Shown one piece after another: positions 3,508 through 64,000 of a stretch of 64,000 nucleotides of DNA. The notes under the pieces are model-generated. The model saw only the letters and a program-made list of their open reading frames with translations, searched no databases and was not told the origin of the DNA. Positions within the stretch are counted from its first letter, which is position 1. Each line of letters starts with the position of its first letter. Position numbers and translations under genes: made by a program. Source of the stretch: Desulfarculaceae bacterium (lineage in GTDB: Bacteria > Desulfobacterota > Desulfarculia > Desulfarculales > Desulfarculaceae); the NCBI GenBank assembly GCA_020444545.1, contig JAHLKT010000004.1, positions 620,001 to 684,000 on the forward strand, in the 5' to 3' direction.

Positions 3508-5055
<1,548 letters not shown>

Positions 5056-5067
5056 GCAGTTACAGAA

Positions 5068-5083
5068 TGCAAGGATGGTGCCG
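5068..5083 (-). promoter_or_regulatory. Sigma-54-like site abutting the nifA start codon
   Basis: The minus strand reads CGGCACCATCCTTGCA. It differs from the RpoN consensus TGGCACGNNNNTTGCA at two positions and keeps the required 12-base GG-to-GC spacing. Initiation would fall near 5057, almost on the nifA ATG at 5055, giving a nearly leaderless message. It could be a real autoregulatory promoter, a repressing RpoN site or chance. Confidence 0.35.
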
Positions 5084-5202
5084 CCAAATGCTATGATGGC
5101 AAAAGGCCGATATTACACACTATTTTAATGCCGGTTGCCAGAAGGGTCGGATAGCCCCGCCTATAAACATACTTACGTGAAGCGTTAAAGCGCTATTCAT
5201 AC

Positions 5203-6126
5203 CTAATTGTATGCTTGATCTGTCTTAAACACCTTTCCGTAGGACAATAGGGTGATTAGTCCGCCCCCGGCGGCGGCCAGTTTGGCCGGGTCCAATTTGG
5301 GCCCCAGGCCCCGCTGGGCCAGGAACTCCCCGGCCTGGCGCAGGCTCAGGTTATTTGGCGGCTGGCCGGGCAGGAAGGGGCAGCCGCCCCGCCCGCCCAA
5401 GGTGGCGTCCAGCCAGGCGGCCCCGCCCTGGGCCGCGGCCTCCAACACCGGCTCCAGCCGCTCCGGCTGGCCGTGCAGATGTAGGCCCAGCTCCGCGCCG
5501 GGCATCTGTTCGCGCAAATACTCCAAGGTATCGCCCACGCCCTGGGGAGTGGCCCGTCCGGCGGTGTCGGCCAGGGCCAAACGCCTCACCCCCAGGGCAT
5601 GGAACGGGGCCAGATGGCGGGCCAAATCCTTTGGCGTAGGGGGCTTGAGCATGGGGCCGCCAAAGGCGCATTGCAAGCCCATGCGCACCCGGAGGCCGGC
5701 GTCCAGAGCCTCGCGGGCCAATGATTCCGCCCTCTTGAGGCCATCCCTCACCCCCCGGCCCAGGTTGCGCAAGCTGTGGCGCTCCGAGAGCGAGGCCGAC
5801 AAGGCCACGCCGGTGAGGCCGCAGGCCAGGGCCCGCTCCAGGCCCCGGCGGTTGAGCACCAGGGCCCAAAGCTCCACGCCCGGCCGGGGGCCGATGGCCC
5901 GGATCAGCTCGTCGGTGCCCTGCATTTGGGGCATACGGTCGGGCCGCACCAAGGAGCCCACTTGGAAGCGGCGCAGGCCTGCTTTGAGTAATTGCTCGAA
6001 AAGTTGCAACCGGGCCTGCCAGGGGGTGAGGCGCGGGTACATCTGCAAGGCCTCGCGCAGGGTCTGGTCCTCTAGCCCCATCTTTCGGCGCGGGCCCTGC
6101 CCGGGTTGTGTGTGGTGCGGGTTCAT
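5203..6126 (-). CDS. HMG-CoA-lyase-like DRE-TIM metallolyase
   Basis: A 307-residue TIM-barrel enzyme of the pyruvate carboxyltransferase/HMG-CoA lyase family. Visible motifs are DQTLRE (the DRE-type active-site start, with E where HMG-CoA lyase has D), ALADTAGRATP, the metal-binding HLH (GLHLHGQPE) and GGRGGCPFLPGQPPNN. The cysteine in GGCPF is the catalytic cysteine of HMG-CoA lyases and is not typical of homocitrate or isopropylmalate synthases, so NifV is unlikely despite the nif neighbourhood. The ATG at 6126 is preferred because GGGAGG lies about 7 bases upstream; an in-frame start at 6231 has no ribosome site. It ends 148 bases before nifA in the same direction. Natural substrate unknown. 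Confidence 0.8.
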   Translation of the reverse strand: MNPHHTQPGQGPRRKMGLEDQTLREALQMYPRLTPWQARLQLFEQLLKAGLRRFQVGSLVRPDRMPQMQGTDELIRAIGPRPGVELWALVLNRRGLERALACGLTGVALSASLSERHSLRNLGRGVRDGLKRAESLAREALDAGLRVRMGLQCAFGGPMLKPPTPKDLARHLAPFHALGVRRLALADTAGRATPQGVGDTLEYLREQMPGAELGLHLHGQPERLEPVLEAAAQGGAAWLDATLGGRGGCPFLPGQPPNNLSLRQAGEFLAQRGLGPKLDPAKLAAAGGGLITLLSYGKVFKTDQAYN

Positions 6127-6203
6127 GCTTGCGCCTCCCTGGCGGTTTCGCTGCGGCCGGGCGGATGGCCCATCCTGCGGACCCGGCCCTCGCCTTGTAA
6201 CAA

Positions 6204-51891: not shown

Positions 51892-52815
51892 CTAGGGCAG
51901 GCTAAGAGTCATGCCCACCGAGGTGAAGGGGCAGCGCTCGCCCAGGGCCTGGCGCAGCATCTGCTTGGCCAGGGCCCCGGTGCAGTGCATGGGCACCAAA
52001 TAACGCAGCCCCTGTTCGGCCAAGCGATCCACCACCTTGCCCAAGGCCTCCTCGCCCAGGAAGTTGAGGTGGAAGCCGCCCATCAGGGTGTGCAGCGGGG
52101 TCTCGGGGAACAAGGCCCGGGCCGCGGCCAGGGTGTTGAACACGCCGGCATGGCAGCAGCCGGTGATCACCACCAGGCCCGCGCCTCGCAGGTTCACCAC
52201 CAGGGCCTGGTCGTCATCAATGGCGTCGGGGGCCCACTGTTCGCCTTCGCGGCGCAGCCCCGCCTTCCACAGCACGTCGTGGCTGGACTGGTGGGGGATG
52301 CCGCCGGTGAGCCACAGGCCGGGGGCCAGCTCGCGGGGGCCCGGGGCCATCAGGGGAACGGAGCCGAGGGCGGCTTCCACCTGGCTGCTTTCCAGGTTCC
52401 AGGGTCCGGCCACTCCGCCGTCGGGCCGCCGCACCCCGCGCACCCCGAAGGCCTGGGGATGGGCCAGCAAGGGGGCGCGCAACTCGTATTGCCGGGCCAA
52501 AGACTCCAGGCCGCCGTAATGGTCGATGTGCCCGTGGCTCAGCGCCAGCCAGTCGGCCTGGGAGGGGTCGATGCCCAGAGCGCGCAGGTTGAAAGGCAAC
52601 ACCGCCTCGCCCCGGCCGAAGTCATACAGCACCCGGGTCACTTTGCCGTCGGTGTCTTCCACCTCCAGCCACATGGACATGCCCTGCTCGGCCAGCAGGA
52701 TGGAGCCCGGCCCGGGCAGGGGATAGCCGAAGGGGCCCGAAGCGGGCAAAAAGATGTCCACCGTGTTGTCCACCACCACGGTGATTTTGAGTTTGGCGGC
52801 AATGCTGTGGTTCAT
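51892..52815 (-). CDS. Metallo-beta-lactamase-fold protein (dihydropterin phosphate synthase-like)
   Basis: A 307-residue MBL-fold protein. The metal motif is LSHGHIDHYGGLESL (about 93-107), with later ligands in TGCCHAGVFNTL and PMHCTGALAKQ. This pattern, with GCCHAG and MHCTG, is typical of the group named 7,8-dihydropterin-6-yl-methyl-aminobenzene phosphate synthase-like; the true reaction in bacteria is unsettled. No signal peptide. It follows the TAXI binding protein on the same strand after a strong hairpin. Confidence 0.85.
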   Translation of the reverse strand: MNHSIAAKLKITVVVDNTVDIFLPASGPFGYPLPGPGSILLAEQGMSMWLEVEDTDGKVTRVLYDFGRGEAVLPFNLRALGIDPSQADWLALSHGHIDHYGGLESLARQYELRAPLLAHPQAFGVRGVRRPDGGVAGPWNLESSQVEAALGSVPLMAPGPRELAPGLWLTGGIPHQSSHDVLWKAGLRREGEQWAPDAIDDDQALVVNLRGAGLVVITGCCHAGVFNTLAAARALFPETPLHTLMGGFHLNFLGEEALGKVVDRLAEQGLRYLVPMHCTGALAKQMLRQALGERCPFTSVGMTLSLP

Positions 52816-52879: not shown

Positions 52880-53851
52880 CTACTTGAGCCAGCCCTTTTC
52901 CTTGTAGTACTTGATGGCCCCCGGATGCATGGGAATGCCCACGTCCTTGGCCATGTCCTGGCGCTTGCCCAGGCGCATGGCGCGCACCATCTTGCCGTAG
53001 CGTTCGAAGTTCTGGTCGATGCTCTTGACGATGGCGTAGGCCACCTCGTCGGGCATGTCCTTGCTGCCGATCACCACCACGTTGGCGATGATGCCGGGCA
53101 TCTCGCGGTCGATCCCGGCGTAGCAGCCCTTGGGCAAGGTGTAGGGCTCCAGGCCCTTGTGCTCCTTGACCAGCTTGGCGATGGCCTCCTGGGACAGGGG
53201 CAGCATCTTGATCTTGCGCTGGCTGGCCGCGTTGACGATGGGCGGGGCGGGATAGGCCATGGCGCCGTAGGCGATGGCGTCGATGTGCCCGTCGATGAAC
53301 TGCTTGCCCGCCTCGGCGAAGCTCAGGAAGCGGGTGTCCATGTCCTTGAAGGTCATGCCGTAGGCGCCCAGCACGTAGCGCGACACCACCGAGATGGCGC
53401 TGCCCTTGGGGCCGGGGGTCACGCGCTTGCCCTTGAGCTGCTCGATCTTGTCGATGCCCGAGTCGGCCCGCACCACGATCTGGCTGGGCTCGGGGAAGAT
53501 CACCGCCAGCTCGCGGATGTTGTTGAGCTTGCCGAACTTCTTGAAGTATCCGATGCCCTGCCAGGCCTCGGCGGCGGTGGTGGAGAAGGAGAATGCCGCG
53601 TTGATCTTGCCGGTGTTGGTGGCGATGACGTTGGCCGCCCCGCCGATGGGCATGGTGGAGCCCTTGATGGCCGGGTTGGCCTTGATGGTGTCTTCCACCA
53701 TGGCCGCGCCCAAGGCCTGCCAGACGCCTCCGGCCGGGGCGGTGCCCCAGCGGATGTCGTAGGCCTGGGCCGCCGGCGCCACGGCCAGGGCGCCCATGGC
53801 CGCAAATAAGCCGGCCAGCATGATAACGGTCAAAACTTTCTTACCCAACAT
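52880..53851 (-). CDS. TAXI-family TRAP transporter solute-binding protein
   Basis: A 323-residue periplasmic binding protein with a signal peptide of about 30 residues ending in AQA. TAPAGGVWQALGAAMVEDTI is the TAXI-type start of the mature domain, and RVTPGPKGSAISVVSRYVLGAYG a conserved core region. The ligand is probably an organic or aromatic acid, judged by the neighbouring UbiD and Mo-enzyme genes. GGGAGG precedes the ATG. It follows the fused TRAP permease by 24 bases. Confidence 0.93.
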   Translation of the reverse strand: MLGKKVLTVIMLAGLFAAMGALAVAPAAQAYDIRWGTAPAGGVWQALGAAMVEDTIKANPAIKGSTMPIGGAANVIATNTGKINAAFSFSTTAAEAWQGIGYFKKFGKLNNIRELAVIFPEPSQIVVRADSGIDKIEQLKGKRVTPGPKGSAISVVSRYVLGAYGMTFKDMDTRFLSFAEAGKQFIDGHIDAIAYGAMAYPAPPIVNAASQRKIKMLPLSQEAIAKLVKEHKGLEPYTLPKGCYAGIDREMPGIIANVVVIGSKDMPDEVAYAIVKSIDQNFERYGKMVRAMRLGKRQDMAKDVGIPMHPGAIKYYKEKGWLK

Positions 53852-53875
53852 ATAAAGCCTCCCTTGTCTGGCGGT

Positions 53876-55771
53876 TCAGGCCCGCAAACTCCTGCGTTGA
53901 CGGACTTGCATTACTATCAAAAGGCCCAGCAATCCCAGCCCCACCAGGCTGTAGATTTTGGCGGGCATTATCAACAGGACGCCCACGCCGAACAGCAGCA
54001 GGCGCAGGTATGACGGCAAGGGGGCCAAGAGGTAGCCCACCCCGGCCGCCGCGAAACTGGCCGCCCCCAGGCAGGCGGTGAACATGTCCATGACCACCTT
54101 GCCCATGGGCCCTTCCAGGAGCAGGCTCTGGTCATAGGCGAACATGAAGGGCACCACGAAAGCCACCATGCCAATGCGGGTGGCGGTCCAGCCTGTTTTC
54201 CAGCCGTCGGACTCGGCAATGGCCGCGGCGGTGAAGGCGGCGGCGGCCACTGGCGGCGAGATCAGCGACAGGCAGGAGAAGTAGAAGGCGAACAGGTGGG
54301 CCACATGCGGAGGCAGGCCCAGGGCGACCAGGGCCGGGATCACCGTGGCCACCTGCACGATGTAGGCAGGGGTGGTGGGCATTCCCGCGCCCAAGACCAA
54401 CGCGATGATCATGGCCATGAACAGGCCCAGGAACAGATGCCCCCCGGCCAGGTCCACGAAGGCGGTGCCCATACGGGTGCCCAGGCCGGTCATGTCCACG
54501 CTGCCCACGATGATGCCGGCCGCGGCGGTGGAGATGGTCACGATGAGCATCCCCCGGCAGCCCGCCTCCAGGGCGTTTAGTATGCCCGCCAGGTTGAGCC
54601 GCGTGGTGGGCCGGAACTGGCAGATGATCAGGGCCGAGACCACGCCCACCCCGCCGGCCAGGCTGGGGGAGTAGCCGCCCACCAACATATAAATAAGCAG
54701 GGCCAGGGGGATGAGCATGTGGCCGTAGTCGCGCATGGTCTGGCGCGGGGTCACGTTCACCTTGAGACCCGGCAGTTTAAGCTTGCGCGCCTCCAGGTCC
54801 ACGGTGACGAACACGCTGAGGAAGTAGAGCACCGCCGGGAACAGGGCGTAGTAGATGATGGTGGAGTAGGGAATGCCCGAGAAGGCGCTCATCACAAAGG
54901 CGGCCGCGCCCATCACCGGGGGCATGAGCTGCCCGCCGCAGGAGGCCACCGCCTCCACCGCGCCGGCGAACTCGGGCTTGTAGCCCGCCTTTTTCATCAT
55001 GGGGATGGTGACCACCCCGGTGGTGGCCACGTTGGCCGCGCCGCTGCCGGTGATGGTGCCCATGAGCGAGCTGGCCACCACCGCCACCTTGGCCGGGCCG
55101 CCCACCATGTTGCCGGTGAGCGAGGTGGCCAGGTTGCTGAAGAGCATGGCCCCGCCGGTGTGCAGCAGTATGGCCCCGAAGATCACGAACAGGGCGATCT
55201 CCGTGGCCGAGACCCCCAGGGGGATGCCGAAGATGCCGCCCAGGGAGAGGTAGTTGAAGTCCAGCATGTCGCTGGGGGTGATGGGCACGGTGTGGAACAC
55301 GCCCCACAAATAGGGCCCCACGAAGGGATAGACCAAGAAGGCCAGCACCACGAAGAACAGGCCCTTGTTGAACATGCGCCGGGTGGCTTCCAGGACCACC
55401 ACCACCGAGCCCAGGCCCAGTATGATCTCCCATACCGAGAGCTTGGTGATCAGGGGGAAGCGGTCTTCCATCACCCATTGGTAGTTGAACACCAAATAGC
55501 CGGTGGCCACGCCCGAGATGAGCGCGAAGCACCAGTCCAGCCAGGAGGGGCCGGGTCCGCCCTTTTTGCGCACCAGGCCGGGCCGCACCAAAAACAGGAG
55601 CATAAGCCCCAGGCCCAGGTGGATGGCCCGCTGGATCAGGGCGTCGAAGGCCCCGAACAAGGCGGTGTAGACCTGAAACAAGGCCAGAACCACGGCCAGC
55701 AGGGTGGCTGTCTTGGCCTGCCAGCTCTTGGTCCCCCAATATTCGCGCCAGGTTTTGCGTTCCGTGGTCAC
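53876..55771 (-). CDS. TRAP transporter fused permease (DctQM-type, 4TM/12TM)
   Basis: A 631-residue membrane protein that fuses the small and large TRAP permease subunits, the usual partner of TAXI binding proteins. Small-subunit-like helices occupy about 15-160; the DctM-like part follows with VVASSLMGTITGSGAANVATTGVVTIPMMKKAG (about 255-287) and a long run of helices, including GMPTTPAYIVQVATVIPAL. GTG start at 55771 overlaps the TGA of the Mo-enzyme gene (GTGA), showing coupling. It uses an ion gradient, not ATP. Confidence 0.92.
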   Translation of the reverse strand: MTTERKTWREYWGTKSWQAKTATLLAVVLALFQVYTALFGAFDALIQRAIHLGLGLMLLFLVRPGLVRKKGGPGPSWLDWCFALISGVATGYLVFNYQWVMEDRFPLITKLSVWEIILGLGSVVVVLEATRRMFNKGLFFVVLAFLVYPFVGPYLWGVFHTVPITPSDMLDFNYLSLGGIFGIPLGVSATEIALFVIFGAILLHTGGAMLFSNLATSLTGNMVGGPAKVAVVASSLMGTITGSGAANVATTGVVTIPMMKKAGYKPEFAGAVEAVASCGGQLMPPVMGAAAFVMSAFSGIPYSTIIYYALFPAVLYFLSVFVTVDLEARKLKLPGLKVNVTPRQTMRDYGHMLIPLALLIYMLVGGYSPSLAGGVGVVSALIICQFRPTTRLNLAGILNALEAGCRGMLIVTISTAAAGIIVGSVDMTGLGTRMGTAFVDLAGGHLFLGLFMAMIIALVLGAGMPTTPAYIVQVATVIPALVALGLPPHVAHLFAFYFSCLSLISPPVAAAAFTAAAIAESDGWKTGWTATRIGMVAFVVPFMFAYDQSLLLEGPMGKVVMDMFTACLGAASFAAAGVGYLLAPLPSYLRLLLFGVGVLLIMPAKIYSLVGLGLLGLLIVMQVRQRRSLRA

Positions 55772-58014
55772 GGCTGTTTTCCCTCGCGGCGTCGGCGGTG
55801 CAGGATGTCCCAAAGGGTTTCGGCGGATACCGGGTTGCGGAAAGTATGCTCGCCCAGGGCGGCGGCCACCGCGTTGTGCACCGCCGGGGCGGTGGACAAC
55901 AAGGCGGGCTCGGCCACCCCCTTGGCCCCATAGGGGCCGGTGGGCTCGGGCTCCTCCACCAGGCGCGTGAGCAGCTCGGGGGCGGGCCAGGAGTGGGGGA
56001 GCTTGTAGTCCAGGAAATGGGGATTGATGATGCGCCCCTGGTCCAGGAGCACCTCTTCGCTCACCGCGTAGCCCAGACCCATCATGGCCGCGCCCTGGAT
56101 CTGGGCCTCCAGGTTAACCGGGTGGATCACCTTGCCCACGTCATGGGCGGCCACCAGGCGCAGCACCTCCACCCGGCCGGTGAGCTTTTCCACCGCCACC
56201 TGAGCGGCGTGCACCGCAAAGGCGTAGGTGGCGTAGGGCACTCCTTGGCTGGTATCCGGGTCCAGCTTGGTGGTGGGCGGGTCGAAGCGGCCTTCCACCT
56301 CCAGGGGCTGGTTCAAAAAACGCCGGGCCGCCTGGGCCAGGTCGAGGGCCTCGCCGCCGACAACCAAACGGCCTTCCTCCCAGCTTGCCGGCTCCCCGAG
56401 CGCGGCGGCCAGCTTGAGCAGGTTCTCGCGCAGCTTGATGCCGGCCTCGCGCACCGCGTTGCCCACCACGTAGGTGAGGCGGCTGGCGGTGGAAGGCCCG
56501 CTGTTGGGGCAGGTGGTGGTGTCTCCGGCCACGATCGCCACCTGGTCCGGCTCCAGGCCCAGCTCCTGGGCGGCGATCATCTTCATGGTGGTGGAGGCCC
56601 CCTGCCCGCCGTCGCCGCTGCCCACCAGAAGGGTCACCTCGCCCTGGGGGCTCAGCACCAGGCGGGCCGCGCCGGGGTTGGGCAGGCCGGTGAGGCCGAT
56701 GCCGTAGTAGGTGGCCCCCAAGCCCCAGCCGGTGAGCCACTCGGGGTCGGCCTCGCGGGGATGGGAGGGCAGGCCGTCAATGGCCTCTTGGGCCTGATTC
56801 AGGCATTTGGTGATGCCCACCGAGGCGACGAGCTTCTGCCCGGCGGCGGTGCGGTCGCCCACCTGGAGAAAGTTGAGCCGGCGTATCTGGGCCGGGGTCT
56901 TGCCGCAGGCCTCGGCCAGGAGGTCCATCTGGCACTCGTGGGCAATGGCCACCTGAGGCACCCCAAAGCCGCGCATGGCCCCGCCCACCGGGTTGTTGGT
57001 GTAGGCCAGGCGGCCGTGCGATTCCACGTGGGGCACCTCGTAGGGCCCGGCCGCGTGCACCACCGCGCGGGTCACGATGGAAGGCCCGTAGGAGGCGTAG
57101 CACCCGGTGTCGGCCAGTATCTCGGTCTTCACCGCCACCAGGCGCCCTTCGGCCGTGGCCCCGGTGGTCATGGTGACTACCATGGGGTGGCGCTTGTTGC
57201 TTACCTGGAAGGACTCCTCGCGGCTGTAGACCATGCGGGCCGGGCGGCCGGTGAAATAGGCGGCCAGGGCGCTGTAGTAGCCGGGCGAGACCCCCTGCTT
57301 GTCCCCGAAGTACCCGCCGATGGTGGCGCAGATGATGCGCAGGCGCTCGGTAGGCAGCGAAAGGATATGGCTCAGGTGGGTCAGGTCCAGGTGGGCGTGC
57401 TTGGTGGGCAGCTTCACCACCAACACCTCGTCTTCCCACCAGGCCAGCCCGGCCTCGGGCTCCAGGTAGGCGTGCTCGATCATCTGGGTGCGGTAAGTGC
57501 GCTCGATGACGATGTCGCACTCGGCCAGGGCCTCTGCCCCCCGGCCCCGGCGCAGGGTGCGCTCGAAGACCAGGTTGCTCTCGCCGTTGACCAGCGGCGC
57601 GCCAGGGGCCAGGGAGTCCTCGGGGCTGAACACCCCGGGCAGGGGGTTCAGGTCGGGCGCGATCAGCCCGGCCGCGGCCTGGGCCTGCTCCGGGGTCTCG
57701 GCGGCCACCAGGGCCAGGGCGTCGCCCACCCGGCGCACCTTGTCAGTGCACAGGATCGGCTCGTCATGGACGCGCGGGCCCAGCATGATCTCGCCGGGGA
57801 CGTCGGCGGCGGTCCACACCCCCACCACCCCGGGCGCGGCCTGGGCCGCCGCGATGTCGATGCCCTTCAGCTCGGCATGGGCGATCTTGGAGCGGGCCAC
57901 GGCCAGGTGCAGCGCGCCATCGGGCTGGTGATCCCCGGCGTAGCGCTCCACGCCGCGCACCTTGTCCCAGGCGTCGAACTTGAGAACCGGACGGCCGATG
58001 CTGTCGCTGGCCAT
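55768..58014 (-). CDS. Xanthine dehydrogenase-family molybdenum-binding subunit
   Basis: A 748-residue large subunit of the Mo-hydroxylase family. The aldehyde oxidase/xanthine dehydrogenase a/b-hammerhead domain is at about 15-120, then the Mo-cofactor domain, with YSREESFQVSNKRHP, GGAMRGFGVPQVAIAHE, GSGDGGQGASTTMKMIAAQELG, and near the end GPYGAKGVAEPALLSTAP with the catalytic glutamate. The [2Fe-2S] and FAD subunits needed by such enzymes are not encoded nearby. The ATG at 58014 overlaps the small CxxC gene's stop by one base. The neighbours are UbiD and a TAXI-TRAP importer, suggesting an N-heteroaromatic or aromatic acid as substrate. Confidence 0.92.
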   Translation of the reverse strand: MASDSIGRPVLKFDAWDKVRGVERYAGDHQPDGALHLAVARSKIAHAELKGIDIAAAQAAPGVVGVWTAADVPGEIMLGPRVHDEPILCTDKVRRVGDALALVAAETPEQAQAAAGLIAPDLNPLPGVFSPEDSLAPGAPLVNGESNLVFERTLRRGRGAEALAECDIVIERTYRTQMIEHAYLEPEAGLAWWEDEVLVVKLPTKHAHLDLTHLSHILSLPTERLRIICATIGGYFGDKQGVSPGYYSALAAYFTGRPARMVYSREESFQVSNKRHPMVVTMTTGATAEGRLVAVKTEILADTGCYASYGPSIVTRAVVHAAGPYEVPHVESHGRLAYTNNPVGGAMRGFGVPQVAIAHECQMDLLAEACGKTPAQIRRLNFLQVGDRTAAGQKLVASVGITKCLNQAQEAIDGLPSHPREADPEWLTGWGLGATYYGIGLTGLPNPGAARLVLSPQGEVTLLVGSGDGGQGASTTMKMIAAQELGLEPDQVAIVAGDTTTCPNSGPSTASRLTYVVGNAVREAGIKLRENLLKLAAALGEPASWEEGRLVVGGEALDLAQAARRFLNQPLEVEGRFDPPTTKLDPDTSQGVPYATYAFAVHAAQVAVEKLTGRVEVLRLVAAHDVGKVIHPVNLEAQIQGAAMMGLGYAVSEEVLLDQGRIINPHFLDYKLPHSWPAPELLTRLVEEPEPTGPYGAKGVAEPALLSTAPAVHNAVAAALGEHTFRNPVSAETLWDILHRRRREGKQP

Positions 58015-58241
58015 CAACCGTTCTCCTCTCCCGGACGGTAGATGCTCTCCTTGGTCAGGCCGCCGGGCACCCGGGCCACCGCCGCGGAGTTGGCGCTGCC
58101 GGTGACCACCTCGGGGCTGTCTTCCTTAAAGAAATAGAGCCCGCAAAAGGGGCAGTGCAGCTCCACCTTCAGCGAGTAGAGCAGCATGTCGGCGTAGAAG
58201 GACTCCTTGCAGGAAGGGCAGCGCACGTTGAATATGTCCAT
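58014..58241 (-). CDS. Small CxxC zinc-ribbon protein, BsdD/VdcD-like decarboxylase D subunit
   Basis: A 75-residue protein with two CPxC knuckles, RCPSCKESF and HCPFCGLYFF, 20 residues apart, then a polar tail. It starts 3 bases after ubiD and overlaps the Mo-enzyme ATG. Hydroxyarylate decarboxylases (BsdBCD, VdcBCD) pair a UbiD-type C subunit with a D subunit of this same size and cysteine pattern. The resemblance is by length, CPxC spacing and context from memory, so identity is probable rather than proven. A rubredoxin-like electron carrier is the alternative. Confidence 0.7.
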   Translation of the reverse strand: MDIFNVRCPSCKESFYADMLLYSLKVELHCPFCGLYFFKEDSPEVVTGSANSAAVARVPGGLTKESIYRPGEENG

Positions 58242-58244
58242 GGC

Positions 58245-59624
58245 CTATTGCTCCAGGTATTGGCTCAGGTCCAGCCCTTGGCGCACCCTCTCGGGCACCT
58301 CTCCCTTGCGGGGGAAGGGGCGGTCCAGGGGCTTGGTGGCGTCGATGATCATGCCCGCGCTCTTTATCTCGTGGCGCAGGGAGGGGTCGAGCACCTGGCC
58401 TTGCAGGTTCTTGAGGATGGTCAGGTCCTGATCGGCCTGCACCCGCGAGGACAGGGCCCACATCACCTGGTTCAGGTCCTCGGGGTCCACGTCGTCGTCC
58501 ACCACGATCACGTGCTTGATGAAGTTGGAGGCGCTGATGGCGGCCATGGCCGCGCGCATGGGCTCGCCCTCGGTCTTCTTGGCCAGGCTGAGGATCAGGT
58601 TGAAAGGCCCGCCCGAGCCAACCCAGCAGGTCTTGACCACGCCGGGCACCGCCTGCTTGGCCCGCTGGTAGATGGAGGCCTCGATGGGCAGGTGGGCGTT
58701 GATGTGCTCGGTCATGCAGGGGAAAATGTCGATGAAGGTGGGGGCCGGTCGCGAGTACATGGCGCTGATCTCCACCACCCAGCTCAGGCGCTGGGGCCCG
58801 GCATAGCCGGTGAACTCGCCGAAGGGCCCTTCCACGCAGCGGCGGCCCGCCAGGATGCGGCCCTCCAACACCATCTCCGCGTCGGCCGGCACCATGAGCT
58901 GATCGCCCCAGGTGACCGAGGGGGTGATGGCCAGGGGCTGGCCCATGACCCCGCCCGCGGCCGCGAACTCGTCCGCGTCGTTGGGGGTGAGCAGCGCGCC
59001 GGTGAGGTGGAAGGCCGGGTGGTGGCCCAGCACCACCGCGATGGGCAGGTCCCTGCCCTCTTGTTCGGCCGCCGCGAAGTAGGACCACAGATGCCGGGGC
59101 GACATGTAGATGGCCAGGTGGGTGGGGTCCAGATACTGCATGCGGTTCCAGGAGACGTTGTAGCGCCCCTGGGGGTTGCGGCTGACCACGATGGGGGTGA
59201 AAAAGGGCCCGCCGTCCAGCTCGGTGTGGCGCACGATGGGCAGGCGGGTGAGGTCCATCTCCCAGGCGCGCCGGCGCACCGGGGCCTGATCCGGCGGCAC
59301 CACCTCCGGCTCCAGGGTGGCGCCAGAGAGGCTCAGGATGCGCTCCAACAGGGGCATGCGCTTGCCGGTGTCCAGGCCCAGGGCCAGGCCGATCTTGCGG
59401 AAGGTGCCAAAGGTGTTGTTGAGGATGCGGCAGTCACAGGGGCGGCCCTCCAGGTCCAGGACCTTCATGAACTGCACCGCGGGCACCCGGCCCTGGCGCT
59501 CCAGGGCGTCCACCACCGCGGCGCTTTCAAAGGCGGCCGGGGCCACCTCCTTGTTCACCCGGACCAGCTCGCCGGGGGCTTGTTGCCCCAGCAGGTCGAG
59601 CCAATCTTGCAGACAAAGACCCAT
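58245..59624 (-). CDS. UbiD-family (prenylated-FMN) decarboxylase
   Basis: A 459-residue decarboxylase of the UbiD family, which acts on aromatic or alpha,beta-unsaturated acids with prenylated FMN. NVSWNRMQYLDPTHLAIY, EGPFGEFTGYAG (265-276) and HVIVVDDDVDPEDLNQVMWAL are the conserved cofactor and active-site blocks. No ubiX (flavin prenyltransferase) is in the window, so it must lie elsewhere. Good ribosome site (GGGAGTAGG). Situated between the FadR-type regulator and the BsdD-like gene. Could run as a carboxylase in anaerobes. Confidence 0.92.
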   Translation of the reverse strand: MGLCLQDWLDLLGQQAPGELVRVNKEVAPAAFESAAVVDALERQGRVPAVQFMKVLDLEGRPCDCRILNNTFGTFRKIGLALGLDTGKRMPLLERILSLSGATLEPEVVPPDQAPVRRRAWEMDLTRLPIVRHTELDGGPFFTPIVVSRNPQGRYNVSWNRMQYLDPTHLAIYMSPRHLWSYFAAAEQEGRDLPIAVVLGHHPAFHLTGALLTPNDADEFAAAGGVMGQPLAITPSVTWGDQLMVPADAEMVLEGRILAGRRCVEGPFGEFTGYAGPQRLSWVVEISAMYSRPAPTFIDIFPCMTEHINAHLPIEASIYQRAKQAVPGVVKTCWVGSGGPFNLILSLAKKTEGEPMRAAMAAISASNFIKHVIVVDDDVDPEDLNQVMWALSSRVQADQDLTILKNLQGQVLDPSLRHEIKSAGMIIDATKPLDRPFPRKGEVPERVRQGLDLSQYLEQ

Positions 59625-59654
59625 GGTGATTCCTACTCCCTTTGCGCGATGCGC

Positions 59655-60350
59655 TTATTTCCAGAAGGTGGCCATGCGGGTGATGTGGTCCCGCATCAGC
59701 TCGCGGGCCCGGCCGGGGTCTCGTTGGCGGATGGCGTCCAGCATCCCCTGGTGGTCGGCGATGCCCCTGCCCCGGTCCTTGGGCGCGAACTCGTGCACCC
59801 GGACGCTGTGGTAGATCATGGGCACCAGGCCCTTGAGGGACAGGTTGAGCACCATGTTGTTGCAGGCGTCGCCCAGGCGCAGGTGGAAGTCCATGTCCGA
59901 AAAGGTGCGCGGCTCCCCCCGCTCCAGGGAGCGGCGGTATTCCTCGATGGTCTCCTCCAAGGCGGCGATTTCCTCTTCCTGGGCCCGCTGGGCGGCCAGG
60001 TAGGCCACCTCGGTCTCTATGATCAGGCGGGCCTCGGTGAGCTCCTCGATGCTGGCCCTGGCCAGGCGCAGCATCAGCGTGAGCACCTCGCCCATGGGCT
60101 CGGTGCTGGGCTCGGCCACGAAGATGCCCCCGCCCGCGCCCCGCTTGATGGTCAAGAGCCCGGCCTGCTCCATGCCGATGATGGCCTCGCGCACCGGGAC
60201 TTTGCTCACCCCGAATTCCGCGGCCAGGGCGGCCTCGGAAGGGAGCTGGTCGCCCACCTTGAGCTGGCCGGAGAAGATCATCTCGGTGACCTTCTCGCGC
60301 ACCTGGTCCGAGACCCGGGCCTTGTTCAGTTTGCCTGCCGCTAAAACCAT
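59655..60350 (-). CDS. GntR-family (FadR/FCD) transcriptional regulator
   Basis: A 231-residue regulator with an N-terminal winged helix (VSDQVREKVTEMIFSGQLKVGDQLPSEAALAAEFGVSKVPVREA, residues about 12-57) and an all-helical FCD ligand domain holding metal-binding-type DMDFHLRLGDACNN and later histidines (ADHQGML, RDHITRM). ATG at 60350 has GGGAGC just upstream; an ATG at 60398 has none. First gene of the UbiD-Mo enzyme-TRAP operon and probably its repressor, released by an acid or acyl-CoA ligand. Confidence 0.92.
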   Translation of the reverse strand: MVLAAGKLNKARVSDQVREKVTEMIFSGQLKVGDQLPSEAALAAEFGVSKVPVREAIIGMEQAGLLTIKRGAGGGIFVAEPSTEPMGEVLTLMLRLARASIEELTEARLIIETEVAYLAAQRAQEEEIAALEETIEEYRRSLERGEPRTFSDMDFHLRLGDACNNMVLNLSLKGLVPMIYHSVRVHEFAPKDRGRGIADHQGMLDAIRQRDPGRARELMRDHITRMATFWK

Positions 60351-60430
60351 GGGCGCTCCCTTGGCTGGGGGCCGGACCGCCGCGCCGGGCGCGGACATCG
60401 GCCGGGCTAAAACCTAACATTAGCTTTTTG

Positions 60431-60459
60431 ACCTTAGAACAACCGAACCCGTCAGTCAA
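60431..60459 (-). promoter_or_regulatory. Putative promoter of the GntR-UbiD-TRAP operon
   Basis: On the minus strand TTGACT (60454-60459), a 17-base spacer and TAAGGT (60431-60436). It lies 80-110 bases upstream of the regulator's ATG. The flanking AT-rich bases from 60412 to 60500 are the likely place for an operator. Apart from this and the terminator at 60575, the 341-base gap 60351-60691 holds nothing recognisable. Confidence 0.5.
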
Positions 60460-60574: not shown

Positions 60575-60611
60575 AAAAAAAGCGAGGGCTGGCCGCGTCC
60601 GGCCAGCCCTC
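60575..60611 (-). terminator. Rho-independent terminator of the DctQM-acyl-CoA ligase operon
   Basis: On the minus strand GAGGGCTGGCC pairs perfectly with GGCCAGCCCTC around a 6-base loop and is followed by GCTTTTTTT. It lies 80 bases past the ligase stop. Confidence 0.9.
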
Positions 60612-60691: not shown

Positions 60692-62185
60692 TCAGCTTTC
60701 GATGAGTCCCTTTCTGATCTCCCGCTTGAATATCTTGCCGGCCGCGGTCTTGGGCAGGTCGTCCTGGATGATGAACTCCTTGGGCACCTTGAAGGGGCTC
60801 AGCCTGGTCTTGAGCAGGGCGCGCATCTCCACCGGGTCCAAGGCCTCGCCCGGGGCCAGCACGCAGACCGCCACCACCCGCTCGCCGTATTCCGGGTCGG
60901 GCAGGCCGATCACCGAGCATTCGGCGATCTGGCGGAACTCGAAGAGCACCTCTTCCACCTCGCGGGGGTACACGTTCTCCCCGCCGGTGATGATCATCTC
61001 CTTGAGGCGGTCCACGATGAACAAATAGCCCTCTTCGTCCAGGTAGCCCACGTCGCCCGAGCGCAGCCAGTCACCATAAAAGGAGTCCTGGGTGTCGCGG
61101 GGGTTGTCCAGATAGCCCTGCATCACGTTGCGGCCCCGGATGCAGATCTCGCCGCTCTGGCCGGTGGGCAAGGGGCGGCCCATCTCGTCGCGGATGCTCA
61201 CCTCGGTGGTGCCCACCGGCTCGCCCACCGAGCCCACCCGGTGCTTGCGGTGGTGGTTGAAGGTGACCATGGAGGCGGTCTCGGTCATGCCGTAGGCCTC
61301 GTGGATGGCCAGGTCGGTGGCTTCTTGCCAGCGAATCACGTGCTCCCGGGCCAGGGAGGCCGCCGCGCTGAAGCAATAGCGGATATTGCCGAGCTGGGCC
61401 TTGAGTTCCGGCATCTGCAACAGGCGCACGTAGACCGTGGGCACCGCGTAGAGCTTGGTGACCCCGTGCTTGGCGATGGCGGCCAGGGCCTCGTCCTGGT
61501 TGAAGCCGGGCATGAGCACCAGGCAGCCGGCCGAGAGCACGGTGGCGTTCATGATGTGCATCTGGCCGAAGACGTGGTTGAAGGGCAGGAAGCACAGCAC
61601 CCGGTCGTCCTGGGTGGACTGTTCCATGCGCACCACGTTGTGGATGGCGGTGTTGATGTTCTCGTGGCTGAGCATCACCCCCTTGGGCGTGCCGGTGGTG
61701 CCCCCGGTGTAGAGCACGCAGGCCAGATCGTCGCGCTCGCGCTCCACCGCGGCCATGGGCCCGGCGGCCGCGGCCATCAGCTCGTCCGGCTCGTGGTCGC
61801 CGCCGCGTCCGATGAGCCAGCTTATGCCCGCCGAGGAGCGCAGGGTGTCCAGGGTGGGGTAATGGGCCGGGTCGGCGTAGATGGCCTTGGGCTTGGCGTG
61901 CCCGGCCAGCAGGGCCAGCTCCTTGGGCGATAGCTGGTTGGACAGGGTGACCGCCACTGCGCCCAGCTTGAGCGCGCCGAAGTAGACGTAGAGCCACTCC
62001 ACCGAGTTGGGCGCGCAAAGGGCGATGCGGTCGCCGGCTTTGAGGCCCAGCCCGGCCAGGGCCGTGGCCAAGCGGCCGGCCCGCCGGTCCAGCTGGGCAT
62101 AGGTTACGCTATGGTCTCCCTGGATCACAGCCGGGTTGTCCGGGAAAAACAGGGCGCTGCGTTCCAAGTTGCAGGCTAGGTTCAT
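60692..62185 (-). CDS. AMP-dependent acyl-CoA ligase (long-chain fatty acid-CoA ligase-like)
   Basis: A 497-residue ATP-dependent CoA ligase. The AMP-binding motif LYTGGTTGTPKGVMLSHE is at about 165-182, the A5-type EAYGMTETAS follows, then GDVGYLDEEGYLFIVDR and the C-terminal KTAAGKIFKREIRK with catalytic lysine. Length and motifs fit class I acyl-CoA synthetases that activate fatty, cyclohexane or aromatic acids. It is 42 bases after dctM, so the acid brought in by the TRAP system may be what it activates. GAGG precedes the ATG. Confidence 0.92.
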   Translation of the reverse strand: MNLACNLERSALFFPDNPAVIQGDHSVTYAQLDRRAGRLATALAGLGLKAGDRIALCAPNSVEWLYVYFGALKLGAVAVTLSNQLSPKELALLAGHAKPKAIYADPAHYPTLDTLRSSAGISWLIGRGGDHEPDELMAAAAGPMAAVERERDDLACVLYTGGTTGTPKGVMLSHENINTAIHNVVRMEQSTQDDRVLCFLPFNHVFGQMHIMNATVLSAGCLVLMPGFNQDEALAAIAKHGVTKLYAVPTVYVRLLQMPELKAQLGNIRYCFSAAASLAREHVIRWQEATDLAIHEAYGMTETASMVTFNHHRKHRVGSVGEPVGTTEVSIRDEMGRPLPTGQSGEICIRGRNVMQGYLDNPRDTQDSFYGDWLRSGDVGYLDEEGYLFIVDRLKEMIITGGENVYPREVEEVLFEFRQIAECSVIGLPDPEYGERVVAVCVLAPGEALDPVEMRALLKTRLSPFKVPKEFIIQDDLPKTAAGKIFKREIRKGLIES

Positions 62186-62227
62186 GCTTACCTCGCTGGG
62201 GCTTTAAGAGGGGCAACCCCCTTGATG

Positions 62228-63535
62228 CTACTTCATATGCGACGGGATATAGGTCGCTATCTCCGGGAACAATATGAGCAGCACGATGGCCAGGGTGCTG
62301 GCCGCGATAAAGGGCCCGATGCCCTTGAAAATGGTGTTGAGCGAAAGATCCGGCGCCACGCCCTTGATCACAAACACGTTGAGCCCCACCGGCGGGGTGA
62401 TGAGCCCGATCTCCAAAACCACCACCATCAACACACCGTACCAAATGGGGTCGAAGCCCAGGGTCTGGATCACCGGGAAGAGGATGGGGGTGGTGAGGAT
62501 CATGATGGCGAAGCAGTCCATCACGCATCCCAGGATCAGGTAGAGCACCAGGATGCCGCAGAGGATCACGTAGGGCGAGAACGGCAGGGCGCCCAGGAAG
62601 TCGGCCAGTTGCATGGGCAGCTGGGTGACCGCCAGAAAGCGGCTGAACAGCTCGGCCCCGATGATGATCAAAAAGATCATGGCCGTGGTCTTGCCGGTGG
62701 CCAGCAGGCACTCCAGGACGCCGCTGAAGGTGAGCTTGCCCCTGAGCAGCGCGATGATAAACGCCCCGAAGGCGCCCACGCCCGCGGCCTCGGTGGGGGT
62801 AAACACGCCGGCATAGATGCCGCCGATGACCACGGTGAACAGCACCAGCATGCCCCAGATGCCGGCCAGGGAACGCCAGCGCTCGGCCATGCTGGCCTTG
62901 GGGCGGGTGGGGCCCAGGCCGGGCCGCAGCAGGCACTGGATGTACACGGTCAGGATGAAGATGCCGGCCAGCATCAGGCCGGGCAGGATGCCGGCCATGA
63001 ACAGCTTGCCGATGGATTCCTCGATGAGGATGCCGTAGATGACAAAGCCGATGCTGGGCGGGATGAGGATACCCAGGGTGCCGCCGGCGGCCACCGAGCC
63101 CGAAGCCAGGGAGGGGTCGTAGCCGTATTTGCGCATCTCGGGCATGGCCACGGTGCCCATGGTGGCGGCGGTGGCCAGGGAAGAGCCGCTGATGGCCGAA
63201 AAGCCCGCGCAGCCCAGGATGGTGGCCATGGCCAGGCCGCCCCGGGTGTGGCCGATCCAGGAATGCACCGCCTTGAATATCTCGCCGCTGATGCCCGAGA
63301 CGAAGGCGAACTGCCCCATGAGCACGAACAGGGGGATGACGCTCAGCATGAAGCTGGAGCCGGAGGAATAGGGAGTCATCCCCAGGATGGGCAGGGCCGA
63401 CTCCAGCCCCACCACCATGCCGTAGCCCACGAAGCCCACCAGGGCCAGGGCCAGGCCGATATGCATGCCCAGAGCCAGGAGCACGAACAACACCGCCGTG
63501 CCCAACAGCCCCAGGGTCAATGGGTCCATCATCAT
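62228..63535 (-). CDS. dctM: TRAP transporter large permease subunit (DctM)
   Basis: A 435-residue membrane protein with about 12 spans. SVIPLFVLMGQFAFVSG, CAGFSAISGSSLATAATMGTVAMPEMRKYGYDPSLASGSVAAGGTLGILIPPS (starting at about 115) and PVGLNVFVIKGVAPD are diagnostic. It begins with three consecutive ATG codons and overlaps the dctQ stop by 4 bases. The matching DctP binding protein is not in the window and probably lies beyond base 64000. Confidence 0.93.
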   Translation of the reverse strand: MMMDPLTLGLLGTAVLFVLLALGMHIGLALALVGFVGYGMVVGLESALPILGMTPYSSGSSFMLSVIPLFVLMGQFAFVSGISGEIFKAVHSWIGHTRGGLAMATILGCAGFSAISGSSLATAATMGTVAMPEMRKYGYDPSLASGSVAAGGTLGILIPPSIGFVIYGILIEESIGKLFMAGILPGLMLAGIFILTVYIQCLLRPGLGPTRPKASMAERWRSLAGIWGMLVLFTVVIGGIYAGVFTPTEAAGVGAFGAFIIALLRGKLTFSGVLECLLATGKTTAMIFLIIIGAELFSRFLAVTQLPMQLADFLGALPFSPYVILCGILVLYLILGCVMDCFAIMILTTPILFPVIQTLGFDPIWYGVLMVVVLEIGLITPPVGLNVFVIKGVAPDLSLNTIFKGIGPFIAASTLAIVLLILFPEIATYIPSHMK

Positions 63536-64000
63536 GCGTCACCTCCCCTCAGGGCGGCGATGAGCTGCCTGGCCAGCTCTATGCACATGGCCAGGCAGCC
63601 CAATCCCACCATCCAATAGAAAGGCGACTTGGGTATGTGCAGGATGCTGGAGTACTCGCCGATCTCGGCGGTCTCCATGGCCTGCAATCCGGTCATCCAA
63701 GTGATCATGGCCATGATGGCCAGCGATAGCGCCAGGGTGAAGACCTTGGCCCCCCGGCGCATGCCCTGGGGCAGCGTGGAGACCACCAGATCCACCTTCA
63801 CATGTGCCCCCTCGCGCTCGGAGATGGGCACAAAGAAGAAGACCACCAGCACCACCATAAACTCGATGATCTCCAGCGAGCCCAGGATGGGGCTGTTGAA
63901 CAGGTAGCGGAAAGCCACGTCGGCGCTGGTGAGCAGCATCATGCAGAAGAGCACCACCGCGCCGGCCAGGCTAAGCAACCCGCTCAACCCCCCTTGCTTG
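63532..64000 (-). CDS. dctQ: TRAP transporter small permease subunit (DctQ), 5' end cut by the window
   Basis: At least 156 codons of a four-helix membrane protein. DVAFRYLFNSPILGSLEIIEFMVVLVVFF and EREGAHVKVDLV are DctQ hallmarks. A TTG at 63987 is in frame, but the reading frame stays open to the window edge and family members usually have a further 10-20 residues, so the true start is probably outside. Pairs with DctM through an ATGA overlap. Confidence 0.9.
   Translation of the reverse strand, partial: KQGGLSGLLSLAGAVVLFCMMLLTSADVAFRYLFNSPILGSLEIIEFMVVLVVFFFVPISEREGAHVKVDLVVSTLPQGMRRGAKVFTLALSLAIMAMITWMTGLQAMETAEIGEYSSILHIPKSPFYWMVGLGCLAMCIELARQLIAALRGGDA

Follow-up and report, generated by a model that had tools for sequence, protein, structure and literature searches.

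Clusters that join a UbiD decarboxylase, a molybdenum (Mo)-containing furoyl-coenzyme A (CoA) oxidase and transporters are known as hmf clusters (PMC12064950, drawn on here through part of its text). In Cupriavidus basilensis HMF14 and Pseudomonas umsongensis GO16, such a cluster comprises HmfF with a UbiX-type partner, the oxidase HmfABC and transporters; in that part of the text, neither a zinc-ribbon partner of UbiD nor TAXI-TRAP transport is mentioned. Denitrifiers, in turn, take up o-phthalate by TAXI-TRAP, and their clusters hold UbiD and UbiX (PMC13040137, also represented by a portion of its text). These anaerobic clusters of Aromatoleum, Azoarcus and Thauera unite TAXI-TRAP, a CoA transferase, the UbiD-like phthaloyl-CoA decarboxylase and UbiX, and that portion mentions no Mo hydroxylase and no small protein of the kind described below. 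A TAXI-TRAP system is also present in an aerobic phthalate operon (PMC6362003). In this report, we examined an operon lying within 64,000 nucleotides of Desulfarculaceae DNA (the whole stretch is called the window) that encodes a UbiD decarboxylase, a 75-residue CxxC protein (D75), a Mo-hydroxylase large subunit (MoL) and a TAXI-TRAP transporter. A preliminary description of the window knew of no operon with this content. For the exact content this still stands, as no published description was found in the open-access library searched, absence from which is weak evidence; for the general kind it does not, since UbiD with a Mo oxidase and transport, and TAXI-TRAP with UbiD, are already described in the hmf and anaerobic phthalate clusters. 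Its parts belong to known kinds; what is new is the combination of genes, the small helper protein, and a hydroxylase devoid of its usual electron-carrying partners.

Our main finding is that the genes make up a genuine operon, complete in itself and conserved within a single genus of sulfate-reducer-type bacteria. It lies on the minus strand and encodes, in order, a GntR family regulator with an FCD ligand domain (FadR-type, 59655..60350), a UbiD family decarboxylase of 459 residues dependent on prenylated flavin mononucleotide (prFMN; 58245..59624), the zinc-ribbon-like D75, a putative small subunit associated with UbiD (58014..58241), MoL, a xanthine-dehydrogenase family molybdenum subunit of 748 residues (55768..58014), a fused TRAP permease of DctQ-DctM type (53876..55771), a TAXI family TRAP solute-binding protein with a signal-like segment at its N-terminus (52880..53851), and a metallo-beta-lactamase-fold (MBL) hydrolase with an HGHIDHYGG motif (51892-52815). 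The six genes that the preliminary description had placed at 52880-60350 are all there, but its list was incomplete: the MBL gene is a seventh member, found last in every complete copy, and fuller versions of the module add flavin adenine dinucleotide (FAD) and [2Fe-2S] (FeS) subunits. The tight coupling it had noticed is borne out by spacing computed from the sequence, with gaps of 30 bp (GntR-UbiD), 3 bp (UbiD-D75), 24 bp (TRAP-TAXI) and 64 bp (TAXI-MBL), a 1-base overlap of D75 and MoL (TGATG) and a 4-base overlap (GTGA) of the MoL stop with the GTG start of the permease. This coupling is well beyond chance, and the gene order is the same in six complete copies from the genus.

Pfam and NCBIfam searches agree with the enzyme classes first assigned. 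They match the winged helix and FCD domain of the regulator (PF00392, PF07729), the N, Rift and C domains of UbiD (PF20695, PF01977, PF20696; TIGR00148 at 262 bits against a cut-off of 244.85), Ald_Xan_dh_C, MoCoBD_1 and MoCoBD_2 in MoL, a complete Mo subunit (PF01315, PF02738, PF20256), TRAP_fused (609, cut-off 320.65) and TRAP_TAXI (223.7, cut-off 84.35). For the regulator, the start proposed earlier, ATG 60350 (231 residues), is also the most likely one when judged against orthologues of 231-233 residues. The module resembles hmf clusters in uniting UbiD, a Mo oxidase or hydroxylase and what would be dedicated heteroaromatic-acid transport, but it has no CoA ligase and no small Mo-enzyme subunits, while hmf activates its substrate with CoA, has transporters of other types and is controlled by LysR/AraC regulators. 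With the phthalate clusters it shares a TAXI-TRAP system adjoining a UbiD-family decarboxylase; those, unlike the module, need CoA activation, and their decarboxylase is a distant UbiD, so that membership of our UbiD in the phthaloyl-CoA decarboxylases (only 63 bits) was rejected.

To assess conservation, a collection of one genome per species, covering about 85,000 species, was scanned with the window UbiD (labels in L and G below denote loci and genomes; 'own genome' is the source of the window). Six relatives were found, at 73-79% identity. Five of them lie on contigs of sufficient length and carry GntR, UbiD, D75, MoL, TRAP, TAXI and MBL in identical order, and the sixth ends at a contig edge after D75. 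One of the five, L018, a locus of a more distant metagenome-assembled genome (MAG), falls outside the genus set and has two extra genes, its order being GntR-FAD-FeS-UbiD-D75-MoL-TRAP-TAXI-MBL, with overlaps at FAD/FeS, FeS/UbiD and UbiD/D75 and a FAD subunit matching PF00941 and PF03450. A further genus copy, L074, resides in the single-contig genome G045, so that six complete genus copies (the window, L015, L016, L019, L020 and L074) agree in all seven genes and in their arrangement. At E<=1e-80, this UbiD is present in seven of the eight genomes of the genus and in none of the 55 other genomes of the class. Another locus, L154, also from a more distant MAG, reads FeS-UbiD-D75-MoL-TRAP-TAXI, its FeS gene being truncated at a contig end. 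The preliminary description had suggested looking for relatives in which the Mo-enzyme, UbiD and TRAP genes go separate ways; instead, UbiD-D75-MoL-TRAP-TAXI stay together in eight loci, complete or nearly so. The sigma-54 regulator and AMP ligase that flank the module in the window were not seen as conserved neighbours of its copies. On the L018 contig, genes for a BadF-type ATPase and a 2-hydroxyacyl-CoA dehydratase adjoin the module, which is consistent with aromatic metabolism but no proof of it.

The promoter region also speaks for a single unit, as first proposed: the gene set is conserved behind one promoter/operator. Upstream of the regulator gene lies a palindrome (AAGCTAATGTTAGGTT in the window, 60411..60426, minus strand; AACCTAATATTAGGTT as the consensus in relatives), which was first noticed by eye and afterwards tested. 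Genome-wide searches of five genus genomes found it each time at the promoter of the module, the G046 copy having 2 mismatches. The only other match in the own genome falls within a coding gene. In each genome the site is nearly unique, which fits a pathway-specific, autoregulating FCD regulator. Because of where that second match lies, the idea that the regulator also acts in trans, for instance on a remote locus of small subunits, was rejected. From its position, the palindrome is the presumed binding site of the GntR protein. Just upstream of it, a candidate -35 element (TTGACT, 60454-60459) was spotted by eye, and the promoter scan did not call it; neither scanning for odd-length palindromes nor scanning for the FCD operator pattern was informative. 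A strong terminator-like hairpin of the intrinsic type (60584..60611, minus strand; 12-bp stem followed by a T-run) separates the regulator from the upstream AMP-ligase and DctQM genes; a separate transcript therefore probably begins with the module.

The decarboxylase appears catalytically intact: R161, E265 and E270, its E-R-E residues, sit in conserved motifs and are invariant across all orthologues. No UbiX gene belongs to the module; the own genome has two elsewhere, and either of them can supply prFMN. The closest solved relative of UbiD is HmfF (6h6v, 226 bits), and its weakest scores are against the phenylphosphate carboxylase models. In having a small partner with two CxxC motifs, it recalls the vanillate and 4-hydroxybenzoate decarboxylases VdcBCD/BsdBCD, from which the module differs by its lack of UbiX (VdcB) and by a score of 249 bits against the VdcC model, where the cut-off is 650.

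D75 has four invariant cysteines (8, 11, 30 and 33) arranged as two CPxC knuckles, separated by 18 residues (Cys11 to Cys30) as against 21 in ShVdcD (Cys6 to Cys28). Its size, position and CxxC...CxxC layout justify the earlier label 'BsdD-like' as a likeness, and no further: D75 reaches no Pfam or NCBIfam family cut-off, matches no BsdD or VdcD model even at E<=10, and gives weak matches to generic zinc ribbons. Membership of the VdcD/BsdD family was rejected on this ground, together with a low-confidence structure model and an uninformative fold search. A D75 profile run against 395 genomes of the phylum nevertheless returned 14 matches at E<=2.3e-10, and UbiD directly adjoins D75 in 14 of the 14; weaker matches are a mix of more UbiD neighbours and unrelated proteins. 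D75 represents a family of zinc-ribbon partners that recur beside UbiD enzymes and that VdcD models do not match. Because VdcD is itself a zinc ribbon and a required, integral subunit of the vanillate decarboxylase VdcC (PMC8379154), D75 probably plays for UbiD, by analogy rather than by demonstrated homology, the role that VdcD plays for VdcC.

Pairs of UbiD and D75 recur next to TAXI and fused TRAP genes (L067, L107, L110, L157), next to Mo hydroxylase genes (L066, L068, L156) and, where the D75 match is placed by profile only, with TAXI-TRAP in L104 and L108. The gene combination of the window thus belongs to a broader range in which transporter, decarboxylase and hydroxylase genes are joined. 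L107 and L108 represent a second, distinct UbiD cluster within the genus (TAXI-TRAP-UbiD-D75), of which the G045 copy, about 13 kb from the module, also has an MFS transporter, UbiX and a GntR gene. Two genomes of the phylum, G096 and G253 (loci L065, L068, L069, L101-L106), stand out with over 60 first-look candidates for UbiD in each, alongside 4-5 D75-like proteins, which suggests a large UbiD expansion.

MoL keeps the catalytic Glu702 within the motif GAKGVAEP. Its closest solved relatives are nicotinate dehydrogenase (3hrd, 357 bits) and 4-hydroxybenzoyl-CoA reductase; the former is nearest over both halves and has the RGFGVPQ motif in common, but MoL is a single chain, has Lys205 in place of the active-site Gln and GGYFGDK in place of GGGFGGK, and has no FAD or FeS genes in cis. 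The Lys is found in all module MoLs, including those of L018 and L154, where most related enzymes compared have Gln; GGYFGDK is found in all genus copies and L018, and GGYFGGK in L154. The idea that the Gln-to-Lys change reflects a loss of redox partners was rejected, since L018 and L154 retain an FeS gene and yet have Lys; we read this change, with the GGYFG change, as related to substrate.

Genes for the FAD and [2Fe-2S] subunits are absent from the module in the window and in every complete genus copy. Their presence in L018, and that of FeS in L154, indicates that MoL was once part of a normal three-subunit Mo hydroxylase. Most likely the window's genus lost both genes, which is the simplest reading because large subunits of the xanthine dehydrogenase family normally accompany such partners. 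In the MoL tree the module MoLs cluster, including those of L018 (100/99) and L154 (93/97); it also joins L020 to L018 at 89/86 and so does not firmly distinguish one loss from two.

Partners could then come from elsewhere in the cell. Five FeS genes were found in the own genome, each beside another MoL. The nearest MoL paralogue there (45-46%) belongs to a DctPQM-FeS-FAD-MoL-ferredoxin locus (L070, 6080-12984), conserved in G045 (L168), and this locus could lend its small subunits in trans. Every FeS gene found in G045 adjoins or is fused to a MoL, and one of these MoLs is shortened and lies between insertion sequences (L169, ~4300-6200, between two near-identical IstB-like genes). Two UbiX-FAD loci of the own assembly are truncated at contig ends; they were rejected as orphan small subunits, and the assembly has probably cut through whole enzymes here, because the complete relative G045 has UbiX-FAD-FeS-MoL there (L162/L051, C1 ~999000-1002000, a Mo hydroxylase locus with UbiX directly upstream). 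UbiX genes of the genus generally occupy this place directly ahead of a Mo hydroxylase locus. The two truncated copies (L028 and L027) are 82% similar and break off at an identical position within the FAD gene, apparently because the assembly broke in a repeat.

Taken together, we interpret the module as one catabolic operon that regulates itself and serves a single (hetero)aromatic carboxylic acid, and put the probability of this reading at roughly 0.6. The TAXI protein would bind the acid in the periplasm and the fused TRAP permease would import it. Inside the cell, the Mo hydroxylase may place a water-derived hydroxyl on the ring and UbiD, supplied with prFMN by a UbiX encoded elsewhere, would strip the carboxyl group while carrying D75 as an activating subunit, much as VdcC carries VdcD. 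Hydroxylation before decarboxylation is slightly favoured by analogy with VdcCD. The MBL-fold hydrolase probably processes a downstream intermediate, and the FCD regulator would repress at the palindrome until the acid or its product is bound. The ancestral operon presumably encoded the whole three-subunit hydroxylase; with the FAD and FeS genes lost in the window's genus, MoL therefore probably borrows subunits from one of the paralogous Mo hydroxylases of the same cell. As UbiD is nearest HmfF and MoL nearest nicotinate dehydrogenase, heteroaromatic acids are weakly indicated. Such an operon would be a compact uptake-plus-conversion unit for an aromatic acid in anaerobic deltaproteobacteria. 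Together with the D75 family, it makes UbiD partner biology and the ligands of TAXI-TRAP directly testable, and MoL of the genus, a large subunit that is naturally maintained without its electron-transfer genes, tests whether Mo hydroxylase paralogues can share small subunits.

Several points weigh against this interpretation. The import of a (hetero)aromatic acid with its hydroxylation and decarboxylation, as proposed in the preliminary description (which also allowed for carboxylation), is still the best inference, but its hydroxylation step is not secure here: with no FeS or FAD gene in cis and no relocated orthologue of either found in the genus (the best FeS match to that of L018 has 56% identity), any hydroxylase activity in the genus is putative. 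The subunit census of the own genome is incomplete, because the two loci just mentioned stop at contig ends. The AlphaFold model of D75 has a pLDDT of 68 (low confidence), and a fold search with a best E not below 0.39 was uninformative. UbiD could operate as a carboxylase. The substrate is presumed to be a (hetero)aromatic acid, and TAXI alone does not imply an aromatic acid, because a characterised TAXI protein binds glutamate (PMC11574862). The regulator is linked to its operator by position only.

It is conceivable, though unlikely, that the core activity is decarboxylation by UbiD-D75-TAXI-TRAP only, MoL in the genus being a relic with a non-redox or structural role, or disappearing. The consistent absence of FAD and FeS from the genus copies although L018 and L154 have them, the loci in which UbiD-D75-TAXI-TRAP occur without MoL (L067, L107, L108, L110) and the G045 genome, complete and with FeS genes all found next to MoLs of their own, would fit such a decay. 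Yet MoL is full length, with its catalytic Glu and cofactor-binding regions kept, at 76-81% identity among close genus members (63% for L020), and it evolves under constraint, with a pN/pS of about 0.48 among the closer ones, not unlike that of its module neighbours; several paralogous FAD/FeS pairs are moreover available in trans.

We consider it improbable that the operon carboxylates, UbiD-D75 adding a carboxyl group to a hydroxylated (hetero)aromatic for anaerobic activation while the TRAP system serves another acid. UbiD enzymes can run in both directions, and in anaerobes carboxylating relatives act on benzene, naphthalene and phenylphosphate (PMC8988006, PMC7500099); however, dedicated high-affinity acid uptake and an FCD regulator fit an acid as the starting substrate, carboxylase-type partners (a kinase, Ppc subunits) are missing from the module, and phenylphosphate carboxylase models give UbiD its lowest scores. 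Equally small is the chance that this is a plain hmf-type furan-carboxylate or nicotinate pathway, known elsewhere, to which the closest solved relatives of UbiD and MoL would point. The module has no CoA ligase or furoyl-CoA steps, and these specific substrates find no support in the alignments: the UbiD residue aligned with HmfF Arg304, which we take to be the furan-carboxylate-binding residue, is not Arg, and the Lys and GGYFGDK of MoL differ from the nicotinate dehydrogenase motifs. Still more doubtful is a MoL that acts in the genus as a stand-alone enzyme or as a component of a UbiD-D75-MoL complex, without an FeS/FAD chain of its own, where the change to Lys at the molybdenum site would mark chemistry of another kind on the same aromatic substrate. 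That the genes are neighbours by chance and share no pathway, for which nothing was found, is already refuted by the order shared among the six complete genus copies, L018 and L154, the coding overlaps and the common operator-like site.

Behind the terminator, upstream of the module, the window carries genes for an AMP-dependent ligase and for DctM and DctQ of a TRAP system (60692-63987), which are not among the co-conserved genes. ARAGORN called a tRNA-Val(cac) at 62092-62183, antisense to the start of the AMP-ligase gene; it is probably a false positive.

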